This document shows positions 37,723-46,849 of a DNA stretch of 64,000 bases, in pieces. The stretch covers positions 1,713,026 through 1,777,025 of the forward strand of contig NZ_CP113797.1 in assembly GCF_026802175.1 (NCBI RefSeq), in the 5' to 3' direction. This stretch comes from Thermocoleostomius sinensis A174. GTDB taxonomy: Bacteria > Cyanobacteriota > Cyanobacteriia > Elainellales > Elainellaceae. The notes below the pieces were generated by a model. That model was given only the letters and a program-made list of their open reading frames with translations, was not told the DNA's origin and made no database searches. How positions within the stretch are numbered: position 1 is the stretch's first letter; each line of letters starts with the position of its first letter. Made by a program: the position numbers and the translations under genes.

Positions 37723-39537
37723 ATGGCCTTATCCCAACATTCCTCTCTGTCTCAGCAAAACAATGCTCGCACTGTGGGGCGACGCTATCAGTCATTGATT
37801 TTGATGCTGATCGTCACAATCACATTAATGGGAGGAGTTGCCAGTCGCTTGGTCTACCTGCAACTGCTGCAAGGAGAGCGCAATCGGCAACTGGCTGACG
37901 ATAACCGAATTCGGCTCATTCCTCGGCAACCCGAACGGGGTAGAATTCTCGATCGCAAAGGTCGGACCTTAGCAGGCAGTCGGCTGTCTCATGCGGTGTT
38001 TCTTTGGCCGATCGCCAATCCTAAAGAGCGCTGGGTCGAGATTTTACCGGAACTGTCGCAAATTCTCAATATTCCCCTCGAAGAAATTCAAGATCGGCTA
38101 GAGCAAGCGGGGTACAATTCGCCAGTGCGGGTGCGGGTGGCGCGTAGCATCAGTCCGGCTCAAGTCACTGCCTTAGCAGAATTTGGTCAAATCTTCAAAG
38201 GAGTGCAGGTAGAAGCAGAAGCCGTGCGCAATTACCCCTATGGAGATTTGGGGGCACATGTACTGGGCTATACCGGAGAAATGAATGATGAAGATTTGAA
38301 AGCGCGCGCTAGCGAAGGCTATCGATTAGGGGATGTTATTGGGCAAATGGGGGTGGAGGCTGCGTTTGAGTCGCAACTACGAGGAGAATGGGGCGGACAA
38401 CAAGTAGAAGTAGATGGCATTGGACAAGTGTTGCGGGTGCTGGAGGAAAAACCAACTCAAGCTGGCGAGGATGTGCAGTTGACGATCGATCTCGATTTGC
38501 AACGGGCGGTAGAGCGGGCATTGGGCAATCGTAAAGGAGCAATCGTGGCAATGAACCCCAACAACGGGGAAATTTTAGCGATGGTCAGCCGTCCCACATT
38601 TGATCCCAATTTATTCTCAACCTACATTACAGATGCCCAATGGCAACAGCTTCAAAACCAGGATTTTCCCTTTGTGAATCGAGCGCTGCAAGGCTATCCA
38701 CCTGCCAGTACCTTTAAGATTGTAACAACCACAGCGGCGATCGAGTCGGGGGCATTTCCCAGCGAAACGGTCTTACCGACCTTTCCATTTATTGAAGTTG
38801 GCGGCATTCAGTTTTGGGACTGGAACCGCGCCGGATTTGGCCCGCTTGACTTTCGCGGAGCGATGGCCTGGAGCAGTGACACCTTTTTCTACCAAACAGC
38901 CCTGAGCATGGGTGAAGCCCCCCTGATTGCCTGGACGAAGCGTTATGGATTTGGGCAGAAGACAGGAATTGAAATTGCCGGCGAAGAAGCGTCAGGACTG
39001 GTTCCCGATGCCACCTGGAAAAAGGCAGAACTGCAAGAAGATTGGTATGCCGGAGACAGCGTAAATATGTCGATCGGGCAGGGCTACTTACAGTCTTCTC
39101 CGTTGCAAGTGGCGGTCATGTTTGCGGTGGCGGCCAATGGAGGCGATCGGGTTAAACCCCACCTGTTGATGGGCAACCAAGAGGCTCGGGAATGGCGTCA
39201 GCCGTTGGGAATTTCACCTGCAACGATCGGCATTCTTCAGGATGGGTTGCGGCAGGTGATTACAGGTGGTACAGGACAAGCGCTGAATGTCCCTACGTTG
39301 CCTCCCCTAGCTGGAAAAAGCGGCACGGCTGAAGACCCACCGCGCTTATCTCATGCTTGGTTCGGAGCCTATGGCCCCATCAGTAAGCCAGAGATTGTCG
39401 TAGTGGCCTTTGCTGAGAATTCTGGCGGCGGCGGGGGTAAGGTAGCGGCTCCAATGGTGCGCCAGGTGCTAGAAACCTACTTTAACGGCACCGTGTCTAC
39501 GGAATCGGCTGCACCTGAAGAAGTGATCAGTGACTAG
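37723..39537 (+). CDS. mrdA: Penicillin-binding protein 2 (peptidoglycan transpeptidase)
   Basis: A class B penicillin-binding protein that crosslinks peptidoglycan during cell elongation; one N-terminal membrane anchor (LMLIVTITLMGGVASRLVYL) and a large periplasmic part. Catalytic motifs are the SxxK of YPPASTFKIV near residue 330, the SxN-type SSD motif in GAMAWSSDTFFYQTA, and KSGTAED near residue 532. The pedestal domain has RQPERGRILDRKGRTLAGSR and RNYPYGDLGAHVLGYTG, as in PBP2/MrdA. The gene name follows E. coli usage; its length of 604 residues fits. rodA is not adjacent, unlike in many bacteria. Confidence 0.94.
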   Translation: MALSQHSSLSQQNNARTVGRRYQSLILMLIVTITLMGGVASRLVYLQLLQGERNRQLADDNRIRLIPRQPERGRILDRKGRTLAGSRLSHAVFLWPIANPKERWVEILPELSQILNIPLEEIQDRLEQAGYNSPVRVRVARSISPAQVTALAEFGQIFKGVQVEAEAVRNYPYGDLGAHVLGYTGEMNDEDLKARASEGYRLGDVIGQMGVEAAFESQLRGEWGGQQVEVDGIGQVLRVLEEKPTQAGEDVQLTIDLDLQRAVERALGNRKGAIVAMNPNNGEILAMVSRPTFDPNLFSTYITDAQWQQLQNQDFPFVNRALQGYPPASTFKIVTTTAAIESGAFPSETVLPTFPFIEVGGIQFWDWNRAGFGPLDFRGAMAWSSDTFFYQTALSMGEAPLIAWTKRYGFGQKTGIEIAGEEASGLVPDATWKKAELQEDWYAGDSVNMSIGQGYLQSSPLQVAVMFAVAANGGDRVKPHLLMGNQEAREWRQPLGISPATIGILQDGLRQVITGGTGQALNVPTLPPLAGKSGTAEDPPRLSHAWFGAYGPISKPEIVVVAFAENSGGGGGKVAAPMVRQVLETYFNGTVSTESAAPEEVISD

Positions 39538-39606: not shown

Positions 39607-40758
39607 CTAGAGCATCACATCGCTAGTATGGGTTGGAGCCGGATCAGGCGGGGGAGCCGGAGTGGATTTCACGGTAGATGCTAAATATTTGCGATTCTGT
39701 TCGCGGAGTTTGGCGTCTTCGTCGTCATAGAAAAACGATAGCAGCGCAAACCGTCGCCCTTGGGTTACGGGCGTTACCTCATGTAATAGGGAACAGGAGA
39801 AGATGATTGCTTCTCCCACGTCTGGACGATAAAGCTGAGTGCCATATTCTGGAAACCATAAACAGCCACCTTCATAGCCTGTGTTCAAGTTGAGGGTCAT
39901 CGCAAAGCGACGATGGGCAGTTCCTCGCGTGGTGTTATCGCGGTGACGATTGAAAAACCCTTGATTGTGGGCTTCATAGCAAGCCACAACATGCCGTTCA
40001 AAGCGGGTGATCTCAAACTGAAAGGCTTTTTTAATTTCAGGACTAATTCGTCTCAATACAAATGTGTTGATCTGTTCTAGCAACGCTGTATCTCGGATTA
40101 ATACATCTCGGCGTTTTTTGAAGTTCTCGTCTAGAATAGCGACGGTTTTGCCCTCCACTTCGCGCATAAATCCCGATTCTTCGCCGCCAGTAAACTCATA
40201 GTGATCAATCAACCTCTGACACAGCGATCGATCGACGGCATGAGGGATAGTTAAAATCGGAGCCTGACGAGCCGCCATACACGGTGGATCAAATTCAGGA
40301 AGCTGCTGAAGAAATGCCATCACTCGATCGACAAACTCATCTCCCTGGGGATCTTCCACAGGAAATACTTGCAGAACACGCAGATTGCGATCGAGCACAA
40401 AAACAGTAGGGGTATAGTAAACAGCTTCTTGGTCTAGCTCGCAAACGCCAAAGCGCTGACTAATTTCCTGATTAAAATCCCACAAAAACTTGCAGTAGGT
40501 GGGATATTCAATCGCGTCTTTTAGATGAACATCGTCAGGGTCGATGCTGACGCCAAAGAACGGAATATTGAAAGCGGCAAATTGTGCCTGATATTGACAA
40601 AACTCCTGAACCAATCGGGCCGATCGGGGAACTCTGGAACTGCCGAAGAAAAACAGCACCACTCGATGTCCCCCTACTGTATCAAAGTGATAGGACGCAT
40701 TCGATGTAGAAGGAAGGGTAAACCAGGGGATGGGATCTCCCGTCGTGAACCGTGCCAT
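39607..40758 (-). CDS. Redoxin-like domain fused to an Fe(II)/2-oxoglutarate oxygenase domain
   Basis: A 383-residue two-part protein. Residues 1 to about 155 have the thioredoxin-fold layout of AhpC/TSA peroxiredoxins (FTTGDPIPWFTLPS, VVLFFFGSS, GVSIDPDD, YTPTVFVLDRNLRVL). However, where the peroxidatic Cys is expected the sequence is FFFGSSRVPRSAR, with Ser40/Ser41 and no Cys; peroxidase activity is therefore doubtful. Residues about 165-350 form a prolyl-4-hydroxylase-type double-stranded beta helix with the iron triad His272, Asp274 and His326 and a 2-oxoglutarate-binding Arg (335 or 336). It starts 5 bases after the cupin gene's stop, so the two are translationally linked. Its substrate is unknown. 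Confidence 0.82.
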   Translation of the reverse strand: MARFTTGDPIPWFTLPSTSNASYHFDTVGGHRVVLFFFGSSRVPRSARLVQEFCQYQAQFAAFNIPFFGVSIDPDDVHLKDAIEYPTYCKFLWDFNQEISQRFGVCELDQEAVYYTPTVFVLDRNLRVLQVFPVEDPQGDEFVDRVMAFLQQLPEFDPPCMAARQAPILTIPHAVDRSLCQRLIDHYEFTGGEESGFMREVEGKTVAILDENFKKRRDVLIRDTALLEQINTFVLRRISPEIKKAFQFEITRFERHVVACYEAHNQGFFNRHRDNTTRGTAHRRFAMTLNLNTGYEGGCLWFPEYGTQLYRPDVGEAIIFSCSLLHEVTPVTQGRRFALLSFFYDDEDAKLREQNRKYLASTVKSTPAPPPDPAPTHTSDVML

Positions 40759-40763
40759 GATGG

Positions 40764-41822
40764 TTAAAGCCGTTGAATTAATTTACTCAGTTCTCCTTGG
40801 CGATTGCCACTGCTAATTGCACCCATCACATTCCCAAAAATATGCGGAGCCGCCAATACTCCTCCTAAATGCGCACGCCATTTGCTCCACGACGAAAACG
40901 CTCTGGACAGGGGCAGCACATGCCAAAACCGATTGATCGAACAAACCATCTCTTCACCAAGCGCTGTCACCTCATGCCACCATCCAGATGGCAAAAATAG
41001 AATTTCTTTAGGATACAGCGTAATTTCTTGGGCGTAGGGTATGGCGTGCTGAAACTTGGGAAATGCTTCCAAATCGGGTCGCTCTGGATAGACTTGACTA
41101 TACACGGCTCGCAACTTCAAGCCATGGTACAAATGCTTGATCACAGGAAACGGATAGAGATTATAAAGCTGTGAAGGTGGGAACAACAAGATTTTCTTAG
41201 CGCCATGTAGTTGCACCAGCGTTCCATCCATAGGGTCATAGTGTAGACAAGACGTATGTCCACCCAGACCCACCCATAGGTTAAGCGCAGTTGCCGGCAG
41301 CCGCAAACCCAACTGATTTTCTGCTTGCGTAAGATTTGGCAACTGAGATAAGGGAGTTTGTTGCAGTGAACACCTAGCTAAGTAGAGATCCTGATCCCGC
41401 ACCGTCCCATTCCGTAACCTGTCAGCATACTCCGAAAAGGAGAGCGTGATTGCCGGAACACCGCTGCCCGAACTTGTCCACTGGCGCTTATCTTGCTGAT
41501 ATCGATCGCGTCCATACTGTCGCACCGGGAACGGTTGGTCGCCAAGCTGCTGACACAAGTAATCCAGATTCCAGTCTGGCTCAGCATCTAATAGCCCGGT
41601 AATAATGACTGGTATACCAGGCTTTTGATAGTGCTGAAAAAACTCCGCTGCCGTCAGAGATGCCCCTGAAACTCGCTGAACAATTGCGTTGGTAGAGGTC
41701 CCAGAATTGGATAGAGAGGCCGTCTTAGGTGAGGAATGGGTAGATGAGGAGATAGCAGATCGGCTTCGCATGAGTATAACTAGAGGAAGGCACTGTTCAA
41801 GTGGTTCTCGATCGCCAACCAT
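40764..41822 (-). CDS. JmjC/cupin-8 family oxygenase (FIH-like)
   Basis: A 352-residue protein of the cupin_8/JmjC class, Fe(II)/2-oxoglutarate hydroxylases related to the asparaginyl hydroxylase FIH. The first 50-60 residues are Ser-rich and poorly conserved. The core shows the HxD iron motif in CLHYDPMDGTLVQLHGAKKI (His194, Asp196), with a nearby Lys suited to bind 2-oxoglutarate. The distal iron His283 is in LPSGWWHEVTAL. ATG at 41822; a TTG at 41846 and an ATG at 41771 are alternatives. The next gene encodes a second oxygenase, 5 bases downstream, and an amidohydrolase lies 67 bases upstream, all on this strand. The target of hydroxylation is not evident. Confidence 0.85.
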   Translation of the reverse strand: MVGDREPLEQCLPLVILMRSRSAISSSTHSSPKTASLSNSGTSTNAIVQRVSGASLTAAEFFQHYQKPGIPVIITGLLDAEPDWNLDYLCQQLGDQPFPVRQYGRDRYQQDKRQWTSSGSGVPAITLSFSEYADRLRNGTVRDQDLYLARCSLQQTPLSQLPNLTQAENQLGLRLPATALNLWVGLGGHTSCLHYDPMDGTLVQLHGAKKILLFPPSQLYNLYPFPVIKHLYHGLKLRAVYSQVYPERPDLEAFPKFQHAIPYAQEITLYPKEILFLPSGWWHEVTALGEEMVCSINRFWHVLPLSRAFSSWSKWRAHLGGVLAAPHIFGNVMGAISSGNRQGELSKLIQRL

Positions 41823-41889
41823 AGCGATTGAAGAAGAGGAAATCAAGAGATAAGCGGGAGGTTTTCGGGAGGGTGACTAACACGGTCGG

Positions 41890-43149
41890 CTAGGTCTTCT
41901 CGATCGCTGCTTGCTGTGTATCTGACTTTGCGGGACAACAAACCTTTTCTACACATCGAACAAAAATTTCTACCCCTATGCTCAAGGCAGTTTCATCAAA
42001 ATCGAAGCGGGGGTGGTGATGGGGATAAGCTAGCCCTTTATTGAGATTAGCTGACCCCAAGAAGAAATAGCAGCCGGGTACTTCTTGCAAAAAGAAAGAC
42101 ATATCCTCACCGCCCATCGTTTGACAATCGGGAACGATACCAGCCGGTGTTTCAATCACCGTTTCTGCCACCGATCGCACCAAATTGGCAATGTGCTGAT
42201 CGTTAATCACCGGGGGATAGAGTTTGCAGTACTCCAAGTGATAGCGCGCTCCGTGACTTTGACAAATTCCTGCAATTACGGCTTCAATGCGCTGCTTAAA
42301 AAAGTCACTGAGGCTGGGGTCAAAATAGCGCACGGTTCCCTTCAGTTCGGCACGATCGGGAATGACATTGTGGGCATGACCCGCATGGAGTGATCCCACC
42401 GTTACCACCGCCGATTGCAGTGGATTAACATTACGAGACACAATGGTTTGCAGGGCATTAACAATTTGGGCACTGACCACGATGGAATCAATGGTTTGAT
42501 GCGGCATCGCTCCATGCCCGCCTTTGCCCTGAATTATACAATCAAAGGTTTCCACCGCTGCCATCAGCGCACCTTCGCAAATTCCTACCGTACCCAAGGG
42601 CAAATTATTCCACAGGTGCAGCCCAATAATTGCATTGACATCAGGATTGCGCAGTACGCCCTCTGCGATCATGGGTTGAGCGCCACCAGGCCCCTCTTCA
42701 GCGGGCTGAAAGATGATTTTTACCGTACCCGTAAAGTCTGGTTGATGCACTAAATGGTGGGCTAGGTAATAGGCTGTACCCAAAGCAATGGCAGTATGTC
42801 CATCGTGACCACAGGCGTGCATTAACCCCGGATGCTGCGATCGATAAGGTACGTCATTTTCTTCCTGTACAGGCAGTGCATCCATATCAGCACGGATGGC
42901 CAACACGGGCCCCGGTTTGCCGCTGGCGATCGTGGCCACAATTCCGGTTTGTGCAATTCCAGTTTGATGGGGAATTTGCCACTGCTGCAATTTTTGTGCA
43001 ACAAATTTGGCTGTGAGGTGCTCTTGAAACCCAAGCTCTGGTTTTTGATGCAGCGATCGTCGCCACTGCACTAACTCTGACTGGAGGGCTTGAATATCCG
43101 ATCGTACAGAGGAATGTTCAGAAAAGAGAGATAAAGGAGTTGAAACCAT
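41890..43149 (-). CDS. M20D-family amidohydrolase (N-acyl amino acid / auxin-conjugate type)
   Basis: A 419-residue metal-dependent amidohydrolase of the M20D group, whose members cleave N-acyl or IAA-amino acid conjugates, hippurate or N-acetyl-diaminopimelate. Motifs in order are WRRSLHQKPELGFQE, IRADMDALPVQEENDVPYRS, MHACGHDGHTAIALGTA with the metal-binding Cys/His, FQPAEEGPGGAQPMIAEG, the dimerisation domain with GKGGHGAMPHQTIDSI, and MGGEDMSFFLQEVPG near the end. ATG at 43149. It is the first gene of a leftward run with the two oxygenase genes, 67 bases upstream of the cupin gene. The natural substrate is not known, so annotation as auxin-conjugate hydrolase is only a family-level analogy. 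Confidence 0.9.
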   Translation of the reverse strand: MVSTPLSLFSEHSSVRSDIQALQSELVQWRRSLHQKPELGFQEHLTAKFVAQKLQQWQIPHQTGIAQTGIVATIASGKPGPVLAIRADMDALPVQEENDVPYRSQHPGLMHACGHDGHTAIALGTAYYLAHHLVHQPDFTGTVKIIFQPAEEGPGGAQPMIAEGVLRNPDVNAIIGLHLWNNLPLGTVGICEGALMAAVETFDCIIQGKGGHGAMPHQTIDSIVVSAQIVNALQTIVSRNVNPLQSAVVTVGSLHAGHAHNVIPDRAELKGTVRYFDPSLSDFFKQRIEAVIAGICQSHGARYHLEYCKLYPPVINDQHIANLVRSVAETVIETPAGIVPDCQTMGGEDMSFFLQEVPGCYFFLGSANLNKGLAYPHHHPRFDFDETALSIGVEIFVRCVEKVCCPAKSDTQQAAIEKT

Positions 43150-44584: not shown

Positions 44585-45468
44585 TCAATCTACTTCCATG
44601 CCTAACACCTTCACCAGAAAGGCATAGCGATCGCTAATTTCCTCAATCACTTTAGCAGTGGGTTTTCCGGCCCCATGTCCAGCTTTGGTGTCAATGCGGA
44701 TTAGTACTAATGCCCATCTTCGGTGACAAAGCCATTGAGCAGCCAGTCCTTGTGATCGGGACGCTCGTAGATCAGCACATCCTCAGCTTGGGGTGTGCCC
44801 AGCCGATGAAAATAAATTTTTGGAAACAGGTTAATATCTTCAAACTGAGTCGTTTCGCTGGGTTCGTCATAGCGAGAATAGAAGAACCCTTGTCCATCTG
44901 GTGTCCAAGACGCTCCTGAGAATTTGCTCCATTTCAGCAGATCGGGCAAATCCTCTCCCGTTTCTACGTTTCGCACTTTCCAGTCTTTCCAATCAGACCC
45001 CGATGCTGACAGCGCGTAAGCCATTCGTTTAGCATCTTTGCTAATTGACAATCCCGTCAGGGCAATCGTGCCATCATCCGACAGCGTATTAGGGTCAAGC
45101 AGCAGGCGCGGTTCTGCCTCTAGGCTGGGCAGGGTGTACAGCACACTCTGATTTTGTAATCCATCGTTTTTAAAGTAAAAGTAGCGATCGTGCTTTTTGA
45201 AGGGAGTGCCGTACTTCTCATAGTTCCAAAGCTGAGTGATGCGCTGCTTTAAGGTGTCGCGAATCGGTAGTTGTTGCAGGTAGCTAAACGTTACTTGATT
45301 TTGAGCTTCAATCCAGGCTTGTGTCGCCTCCGAGTTAGGATCTTCCAGCCAGCGATACGGATCAGGCACCAGCGTGCCGTGATAATTATCAACGTGGTCG
45401 ATCGCGCGCGTTTCAGGGTAAACCAATGGGTTAGGCAAAGGCTCAAGCTCAGGCATGATCAAACGCAT
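44585..45468 (-). pseudogene. Prolyl oligopeptidase gene with a large internal deletion
   Basis: The S9A prolyl oligopeptidase cleaves short peptides after proline; complete proteins have about 690 residues. Here the N-terminal part (YPETRAIDHVDNYHG, PDPYRWLEDPNSEATQAWIE, beta-propeller start) runs for 253 codons to a stop at 44707. The frame then continues, shifted by one base, for about 42 codons of the normal C terminus: [20 protein letters not shown], with the catalytic His, ending at 44585. The roughly 390 residues between them, with the catalytic Ser and Asp and most of the hydrolase domain, are absent. The product cannot be an active peptidase. Flanking sequences look intact, so this is a deletion and not an insertion. 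Upstream ATG at 45468 or 45456. Confidence 0.87.
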
Positions 45469-46069: not shown

Positions 46070-46849
46070 ATGTCTTTCAAACGTGCTCTCGCATCTATCG
46101 GCCTAGTGGTTGGAACAGCTTTCACGTTAACCACGGCTCCTGCACAAGCAGCAAAACTTACCCCGGCTCAGTTGGGTTTGCCTGTACTATCCAATCAAGC
46201 ACCAGTAGGTAATGGGTTAAGCAGTCCCAAAGCCTCGTTTCCATACTACACTTCAACCTTCTCGCCCTCACAGTCGTTACGGGTTAGGTTCAGCATTCTG
46301 ACTCCTGAAGGGCTGGGTAGCCGAGGCATGGGAATGTCAAGTTTTGGCTACACTGTGATTGGCAGTGACGGCAAAGCTACGTTTCAATCCATCTTCTCGG
46401 AAACTAGGCCTTATGATCCTAATGCTAGCGCCAAGGGGAATGATTGGCTTGGAAGCTGTGGTAAGGCGATTACGGGTGCTTGTGAGGTGACAATTACCTT
46501 TGAAGCGAATAAAACCTACCAATTGTCCTTACTATCAAAGGGAATTAGTACTTACGGAGTTGGTGTCCTAAACTCCTATACGTTTGATACGGCGTCTGAC
46601 CAGTTCTATAAAAATGGCACGGTTGCTGGGCACAAACAACCGTTTACAACGGTTTCTCAGCCAGGCGCATTGTTCATTGGCATGGAAGACGGCGAGTACA
46701 AGAAGTCTGGCAACAATTTTTACTATGACTATCAAGATTGGGTTGTGAAGGCAGAAGCTGTACCAGAACCAGCTACGTTGCTGGGTTTGGGTGCAGTAGC
46801 AGGTGGAATGCTGGTAGCGCGTCGTCGTAAGGCTGCTCCGTCAGTTTAA
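46070..46849 (+). CDS. PEP-CTERM sorting-signal protein
   Basis: A 259-residue exported protein. The signal peptide covers about residues 1-28 (ALASIGLVVGTAFTLTTAPA, cleavage near AQA). The C terminus is a full PEP-CTERM tail: VPEPATLLGLGAVAGGMLVA with a following RRR cluster, which exosortase (EpsH) recognises before cutting and surface attachment, often linked to exopolysaccharide. The body is Ser/Gly/Tyr-rich, likely beta-rich, with two cysteines at GSCGKAITGACEV that could pair. The specific role is unknown. Exosortase is not in this window. A strong terminator follows at 46903-46934. Confidence 0.9.
   Translation: MSFKRALASIGLVVGTAFTLTTAPAQAAKLTPAQLGLPVLSNQAPVGNGLSSPKASFPYYTSTFSPSQSLRVRFSILTPEGLGSRGMGMSSFGYTVIGSDGKATFQSIFSETRPYDPNASAKGNDWLGSCGKAITGACEVTITFEANKTYQLSLLSKGISTYGVGVLNSYTFDTASDQFYKNGTVAGHKQPFTTVSQPGALFIGMEDGEYKKSGNNFYYDYQDWVVKAEAVPEPATLLGLGAVAGGMLVARRRKAAPSV

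Follow-up and report, generated by a model that had tools for sequence, protein, structure and literature searches.

Here we report a genuine two-oxygenase module in the genome of the cyanobacterium Thermocoleostomius sinensis A174. The window analysed comprises 64,000 nucleotides, positions 1713026–1777025 of the 5.81-Mb one-contig genome, and three minus-strand genes stand in a row within it: an M20D amidohydrolase (window positions 41890–43149, 419 residues), a JmjC/cupin_8 Fe(II)/2-oxoglutarate (2OG) oxygenase resembling FIH and JMJD5 (40764–41822, 352 residues from its ATG), and a redoxin-oxygenase fusion, here called RDX (39607–40758, 383 residues), in which a peroxiredoxin-like domain is joined to a 2OG oxygenase of the PiuC/prolyl-hydroxylase type. 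An earlier note on this DNA had read the three as one possible operon. The layout is as it described, with three intact genes spaced by 67 and 5 bases, and Pfam and NCBIfam agree with its family assignments. We found that the JmjC and RDX genes belong together and very probably constitute a functional unit, and we hold with the same high confidence that M20D is a core gene outside the module. The fuller picture, in which the pair is a regulated oxidation module with M20D as a bystander and possibly an amino lipid as substrate, has in our judgement an even chance of being correct.

The oxygenase pair recurs in relatives

We fetched 76 named JmjC loci; loci with a JmjC frame numbered 71, with a few genomes giving more than one locus. 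RDX accompanied JmjC in seven of the 76, in genomes other than that of the window, which bears out the part of the earlier idea that joins oxygenases of two classes in one unit. Distances in these loci were counted between the final sense codon of one gene and the start of the following gene, and three bases have to be subtracted for comparison with the 5 bases of the window. In Symplocastrum torsivum (L064) the distance was 8 bases, identical to that of the window when the stop codon is discounted; it was 28 bases in Oculatellaceae Prado106 (L068), 45 in Leptolyngbya DLM2.Bin15 (L066) and 159 in an Oscillatoriophycideae metagenome-assembled genome (L065), each time with both genes on the same strand. 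Leptolyngbyaceae SM1_3_5 (L076) carries them on the same strand 32 bases apart and in reversed order, Leptolyngbyaceae SL_7_1 (L125) has JmjC split into two frames with RDX 691 bases off, and in Oculatella LEGE 06141 (L127) the contig ends within JmjC. Because this adjacency of two genes among several thousand is repeated in several genera, we do not attribute it to chance; the pair-bearing genomes are related, and the cases are not independent.

In a sample of 242 genomes, the JmjC family was present in 32, RDX in 43 and both in 24. Of the 44 genomes with a JmjC match, 12 were left out of this count because they had only a remote hit, with no more than 33% identity and E between 5e-19 and 5e-16. 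No description of a JmjC-RDX two-oxygenase module turned up in our literature searches, and the main text of PMC3514251 contains none of the words 'oxygenase', 'fusion' and 'hydroxylase'.

Active sites and domain structure of the two oxygenases

Both enzymes retain the HxD...H iron ligands that the earlier note had recognized. In the JmjC protein these are H194, D196 and H283, invariant in 26 aligned sequences, as is K209, which lies 15 residues past the first ligand histidine and which, by analogy with FIH, we take to be the likely 2OG anchor. The protein is the only Cupin_8 match of its genome (2.4e-40; 139.5 bits, above the cut-off of 27.4), and its structural model, with a predicted local distance difference test score (pLDDT) of 77, was matched best by the folds of FIH and JMJD5 in Foldseek. 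Residues 1 to about 44 have a pLDDT below 50 and lie outside the aligned core; because of this the start of the gene, and hence the 67-base gap to M20D, is uncertain, and an alternative TTG start at 41846 would give 360 residues and a gap of 43 bases. Distant relatives of the protein (L133, L134) occur in Granulicella (Acidobacteriota) and in Hahella, the latter with two tandem copies.

RDX is made up of an AhpC-TSA domain (about residues 1–160, 7.1e-13 in Pfam) and a 2OG-FeII_Oxy_3 domain (about residues 165–360, 2.4e-12; 48.1 bits, above the cut-off of 27). Its ligands H272, D274 and H326, together with R336, are invariant in 20 aligned sequences. The best Foldseek matches to its model (pLDDT 82) were the Pseudomonas putida prolyl hydroxylase in complex with EF-Tu, PiuC and PHD2; by sequence the oxygenase half is nearest to PiuC, and RDX scored 44 bits against NCBIfam PRK05467 (PKHD-type hydroxylase), below the equivalog cut-off of 143. 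A paralog of 55% identity is encoded at genome positions 3657263–3658336. When RDX was aligned to peroxiredoxins, Ser46 occupied the peroxidatic position, and a role as an active peroxiredoxin was rejected for the window's protein on account of the missing cysteine. Two of the 20 aligned RDX proteins (G180, G118) carry Cys in this column; its loss is the rule without being universal.

In two genomes (G159, locus L168 on contig C352, and G207, locus L068) RDX is joined by a linker to a GT4-type glycosyltransferase, and the G159 protein, the one scanned, contains PF12000 and Glycos_transf_1 domains. The relative of this glycosyltransferase in the window's genome is a separate gene. Directly 5' of it lies an AhpC/TSA gene whose cysteines, by reading, stand at the expected motif; a weakly PhyH-like gene is nearby, and this redoxin-glycosyltransferase pairing (L215:6991-8984, about 2.503–2.505 Mb) parallels the RDX-glycosyltransferase fusion. 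Elsewhere, four genomes from two genera (L170, L171, L172, L182) have RDX beside a gene that by reading encodes an ArsA/GET3-like ATPase, and in three of these loci (L170, L172, L182), from one genus, an FTR1-like permease gene, likewise named by reading, is near RDX.

Linkage to two-component regulators

A two-component regulator gene lies just upstream of the pair in six of the seven RDX-JmjC loci, and it is of two kinds. Type 1, a divergent kinase-regulator pair, was found directly upstream of both genes in L064, L066, L076 and L125, with kinases 61–71% and regulators 74–81% identical to the L064 proteins. The second kind precedes both genes in L065 and L068 and a JmjC gene without RDX in L069; its regulators are 75–88% identical to one another and about 43–46% identical to type 1, and all three of those scanned (L065, L068, L069) exceeded the RppA cut-off. 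An RDX gene without JmjC follows a second-kind regulator in G186. The seventh locus is probably linked to a regulator as well, across contigs: in Oculatella G152, contig C82 carries a type-1 regulator followed by the 5' part of JmjC, and contig C135 opens with the 3' part of JmjC followed by RDX, two pieces that would make up one locus.

The type-1 regulator was found in at least 35 of the 242 genomes (E up to 1e-95), possibly an undercount as at most 12 candidates per genome were scored. In six of these 35 (G159, G193, G152, G027, G002, G042) a JmjC or RDX match starts within 600 bases downstream of it, and in G118 and G099 RDX follows at 3.3–3.4 kb. In the genome of the window, a c7-kinase-regulator block containing the regulator ortholog lies at about 156.5–160 kb, 1.6 Mb from the oxygenase pair; next to this displaced regulator tblastn gave matches at chance level only, and no remnants of the pair were seen.

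In the window, RDX converges on a PBP2-like transpeptidase gene (37723–39537, plus strand). RDX of G193 likewise converges on PBP2, a single gene separating them, and in that genome the regulator has kept its place; because of this shared arrangement, the convergence is suggested to belong to the ancestral locus. The simplest history, drawn from few genomes, would be that the lineage of the window lost the regulator link and gained M20D upstream of the pair.

Lipid-type genes around JmjC

We further found that in 34 of the 71 JmjC loci at least one of four genes, encoding GH3, AspH, Rieske and alpha-oxoamine synthase (AONS) proteins, lies within 6 kb of JmjC, and that 25 loci have at least two of them. 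In two Nostoc loci (L074, L077) the GH3 frame as called runs into that of JmjC, with overlaps of 5 and 8 bases when the stop codon is not counted, figures that depend on mechanically chosen starts. Five loci (L074, L077, L078, L082, L129) also contain a GNAT-like and an epimerase-like gene, for which the members in L074 were scanned and which we take to resemble genes of bacterial ceramide synthesis. Among the 242 genomes, GH3 was present in 63, AONS in 83 and both in 59, and all 32 JmjC-positive genomes were positive for GH3 and AONS as well.

The window's genome has a GH3-AspH-MFS-Rieske-AONS cluster at 2355812–2362691 (L241:8813-15692), with no JmjC gene in it; the JmjC gene of the window, at 1.754 Mb, thus lies outside its own genome's GH3 cluster (2.356–2.363 Mb). 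The AspH protein of the cluster was matched best in NCBIfam by OlsC (9.5e-78), but its 261 bits fall short of the cut-off of 450; its nearest relatives are the lipid hydroxylases OlsC and LpxO, and it scores below both cut-offs. The GH3 protein is weakly OlsH-like, reaching 83 bits where the OlsH cut-off is 620. N-acyl ornithine is the product of a bacterial GH3 enzyme (PMC12493201). The AONS protein has serine palmitoyltransferase as its nearest PDB match, and its scores against the 11 matching NCBIfam models were all under the respective cut-offs. Sphingolipid synthesis was considered as a reading of the cluster and not adopted, in view of these 11 shortfalls and of the failure of a cyanobacterial homologue in that role (PMC8895605). 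The cluster is apparently an amino-lipid pathway. Our literature searches found no description of a cluster of GH3, OlsC-like, Rieske, AONS and exporter genes.

The M20D gene and its surroundings

The M20D protein matched Peptidase_M20 (7e-49) and M20_dimer in Pfam, exceeded the TIGR01891 cut-off of 153.75 with 407 bits, and has the M20D motifs. Of the 36 genomes of the window's family, 35 gave M20D matches (E up to 1e-60). A close ortholog was found in 33, the window's own included (71–79% identity outside it, fragments in two), and the three genomes without one are 68–78% complete. The gene is also present in genomes without a window-type JmjC, such as G173 and G233. Its neighbours in relatives are its own: a DUF3318-type gene (one member scanned) in 13 of 19 and a GNAT-like gene, by reading, in 10 of 19. 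Neither oxygenase gene was near the M20D ortholog in these 19 relatives, with 4 to 15 kb fetched for each, and none of the 76 JmjC loci gave an M20D match at E 1e-8 within up to 10 kb per side, some contigs being shorter. Bearing on the history of the locus, in G077 the M20D ortholog lies 2 kb from PBP2 on contig C61, with the JmjC-RDX pair on another contig.

The neighbourhood on which the earlier note had staked its operon is therefore absent in relatives for M20D and present for the two oxygenases, and its possible operon of three genes gives way to a unit of two. Because M20D is not supported as a third member, neither is the pathway of modification and release that had been proposed. M20D most likely came to stand beside the pair by an accident of rearrangement.

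Upstream of M20D and divergent from it is a Uma2-family gene (PF05685; 43768–44376, plus strand); Uma2-type genes also lie 3' of JmjC in the Hormoscilla loci L101, L106 and L124 (L106 scanned). Beyond it follows a truncated prolyl oligopeptidase (S9) gene (44707–45468, minus strand), whose 253 residues contain the S9 N-terminal domain, and because of this truncated gene a rearrangement near M20D is a possibility. Past its stop, in a remnant reaching to about 44585, a stretch looks C-terminal by eye, as if left after an internal deletion. A gene at 46070–46849 (plus strand) encodes a protein with what was judged by eye to be a PEP-CTERM-like C-terminus. Scans for promoters (5 sites, 5.2 expected) and terminators (5, with 4.7 expected) were uninformative on operon structure because these counts are at chance level.

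Discussion

We propose that the JmjC oxygenase and RDX would act as one unit, which in relatives stands directly behind a sensor kinase and an OmpR-type regulator of either of two kinds, and beside which rearrangement has most likely put M20D. We infer from this position that the regulator controls the pair. The FIH-type jelly-roll enzyme and the PiuC/P4H-type enzyme would then hydroxylate the same or successive intermediates, and the Cys-less peroxiredoxin-like domain of RDX may serve in docking and not in removal of peroxide. The likeliest substrate would be an N-acyl amino acid or amino lipid from the GH3/OlsC-like/Rieske/AONS pathway at 2.356–2.363 Mb. An amino lipid is our leading guess, held tentatively and well short of an even chance, and a protein is its main rival. 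In a bolder form, which we think unlikely, the target of this cyanobacterial family of the JmjC/FIH fold would be a lipid or N-acyl amino acid and not a protein, within a so far undescribed GH3/AONS amino-lipid pathway, and the window's enzyme, apart from the pathway cluster, would be driven by a regulator together with RDX, so that lipid hydroxylation would be under the control of a signal.

Several observations weigh against this picture. Only five of the 24 genomes with both oxygenases, the window's own included, have them adjacent (G000, G027, G077, G152, G207), and the type-1 regulator is unlinked to the pair in the window's genome. No locus among the 71 has both RDX and a gene of the lipid cluster near JmjC, and G077 and G207 each keep one JmjC in either context; because the contexts never coincide and these two genomes keep both, the two JmjC branches may differ in substrate. 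The basal forks of our 65-row JmjC tree are open, and for this reason we make no claim on which context is older. Of the 43 RDX genomes, 12 lack GH3. The co-occurrence of JmjC with GH3 and AONS speaks for the lipid link, and outside the window's family it holds in all eight JmjC genomes, but its P values, about 2e-7 and 1e-5, ignore shared ancestry and genome size. A cyanobacterial AONS tested in Nostoc punctiforme, possibly not the ortholog of the present one, yielded no sphingolipid precursor (PMC8895605). A third RDX protein (G120) has Cys within columns 40–50, five residues before the peroxidatic column, and since three of 20 thus carry Cys in the peroxidatic stretch, some members may have kept a working redoxin domain. 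The solved folds that come closest (FIH, JMJD5, PHD2 and P. putida P4H with EF-Tu), finally, are mostly those of known protein hydroxylases.

This last point leads to protein hydroxylation, where JmjC would work in the manner of FIH, of JMJD5 or of a ribosomal oxygenase, and RDX in that of the prolyl hydroxylase that acts on EF-Tu in Pseudomonas, so that one or two cellular proteins are modified when the regulator is triggered; in some species the fused glycosyltransferase would glycosylate the new hydroxyl. The top Foldseek matches of both enzymes and the two RDX-glycosyltransferase fusions speak for it, but nearly half of the JmjC loci (the 34 noted above) place the gene among probable enzymes of lipids or small molecules, and the family was confined to GH3- and AONS-positive genomes in our sample; we consider a protein substrate less likely than not. 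Another reading is the tailoring of a secreted small molecule, a siderophore or an N-acyl amino acid signal, with the likeness of RDX to PiuC and the regulator as pointers to metal or stress control. It would fit the MFS gene within 600 bases of JmjC in 16 of the 71 loci, and the FTR1-like permease genes near RDX in G145, G109 and G125; these are confined to one genus, however, and no peptide synthetase or siderophore gene was among the six window genes scanned, which leaves this explanation improbable. The original three-gene operon, with M20D releasing the product, can point to the shared strand, to the 67-base gap and to the lack of a terminator-like match inside it, the single match nearby being at chance level and within the end of M20D. 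We regard it as highly improbable in view of the absence of M20D from every JmjC locus, the occurrence of its ortholog both in relatives that lack JmjC and in another conserved setting, and the truncated S9 peptidase gene, which suggests rearrangement.

Taken together, in place of a three-gene guess there is now a module of two genes that can be tested, and for which a regulator and a pathway are candidates. Should lipids prove to be the substrates of the JmjC family, the reach of JmjC chemistry would include the synthesis of membrane lipids. The analysis also points to a widespread cyanobacterial cluster of GH3, OlsC-like, Rieske, AONS and exporter genes.

Comparison with known systems

M20D resembles the M20D amidohydrolases YxeP (1.7e-85) and ILR1-like enzymes, its closest solved structures, and has no conserved link to the two oxygenases. 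The JmjC protein shares with FIH (Foldseek 1.5e-20) and JMJD5 (phmmer 4e-20) the Cupin_8/JmjC fold, the HxD...H site and the Lys 15 residues past the first His. It differs from them in sequence, with 21–29% identity in the fold alignments and about 50 extra C-terminal residues, and, unlike FIH and JMJD5, its genomic links are to regulator or lipid-type genes, its substrate being a prediction. The oxygenase half of RDX has the 2OG oxygenase fold and HxD...H...R site of PiuC, the P. putida prolyl hydroxylase and PHD2, but shares only about 20% identity with them and carries a fused N-terminal peroxiredoxin-like domain. That domain is like AhpC/TSA and Bcp peroxiredoxins in profile and sequence, and departs from them in the absence of the peroxidatic Cys from the window's protein and from 18 of the 20 aligned. 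The cyanobacterial cluster is similar to the GH3-dependent ornithine-lipid synthesis of Singulisphaera (OlsH/OlsI; PMC12493201) in having a GH3 gene and an OlsC-like hydroxylase gene, and differs from it by the addition of JmjC, Rieske and AONS genes and by a product that is predicted.

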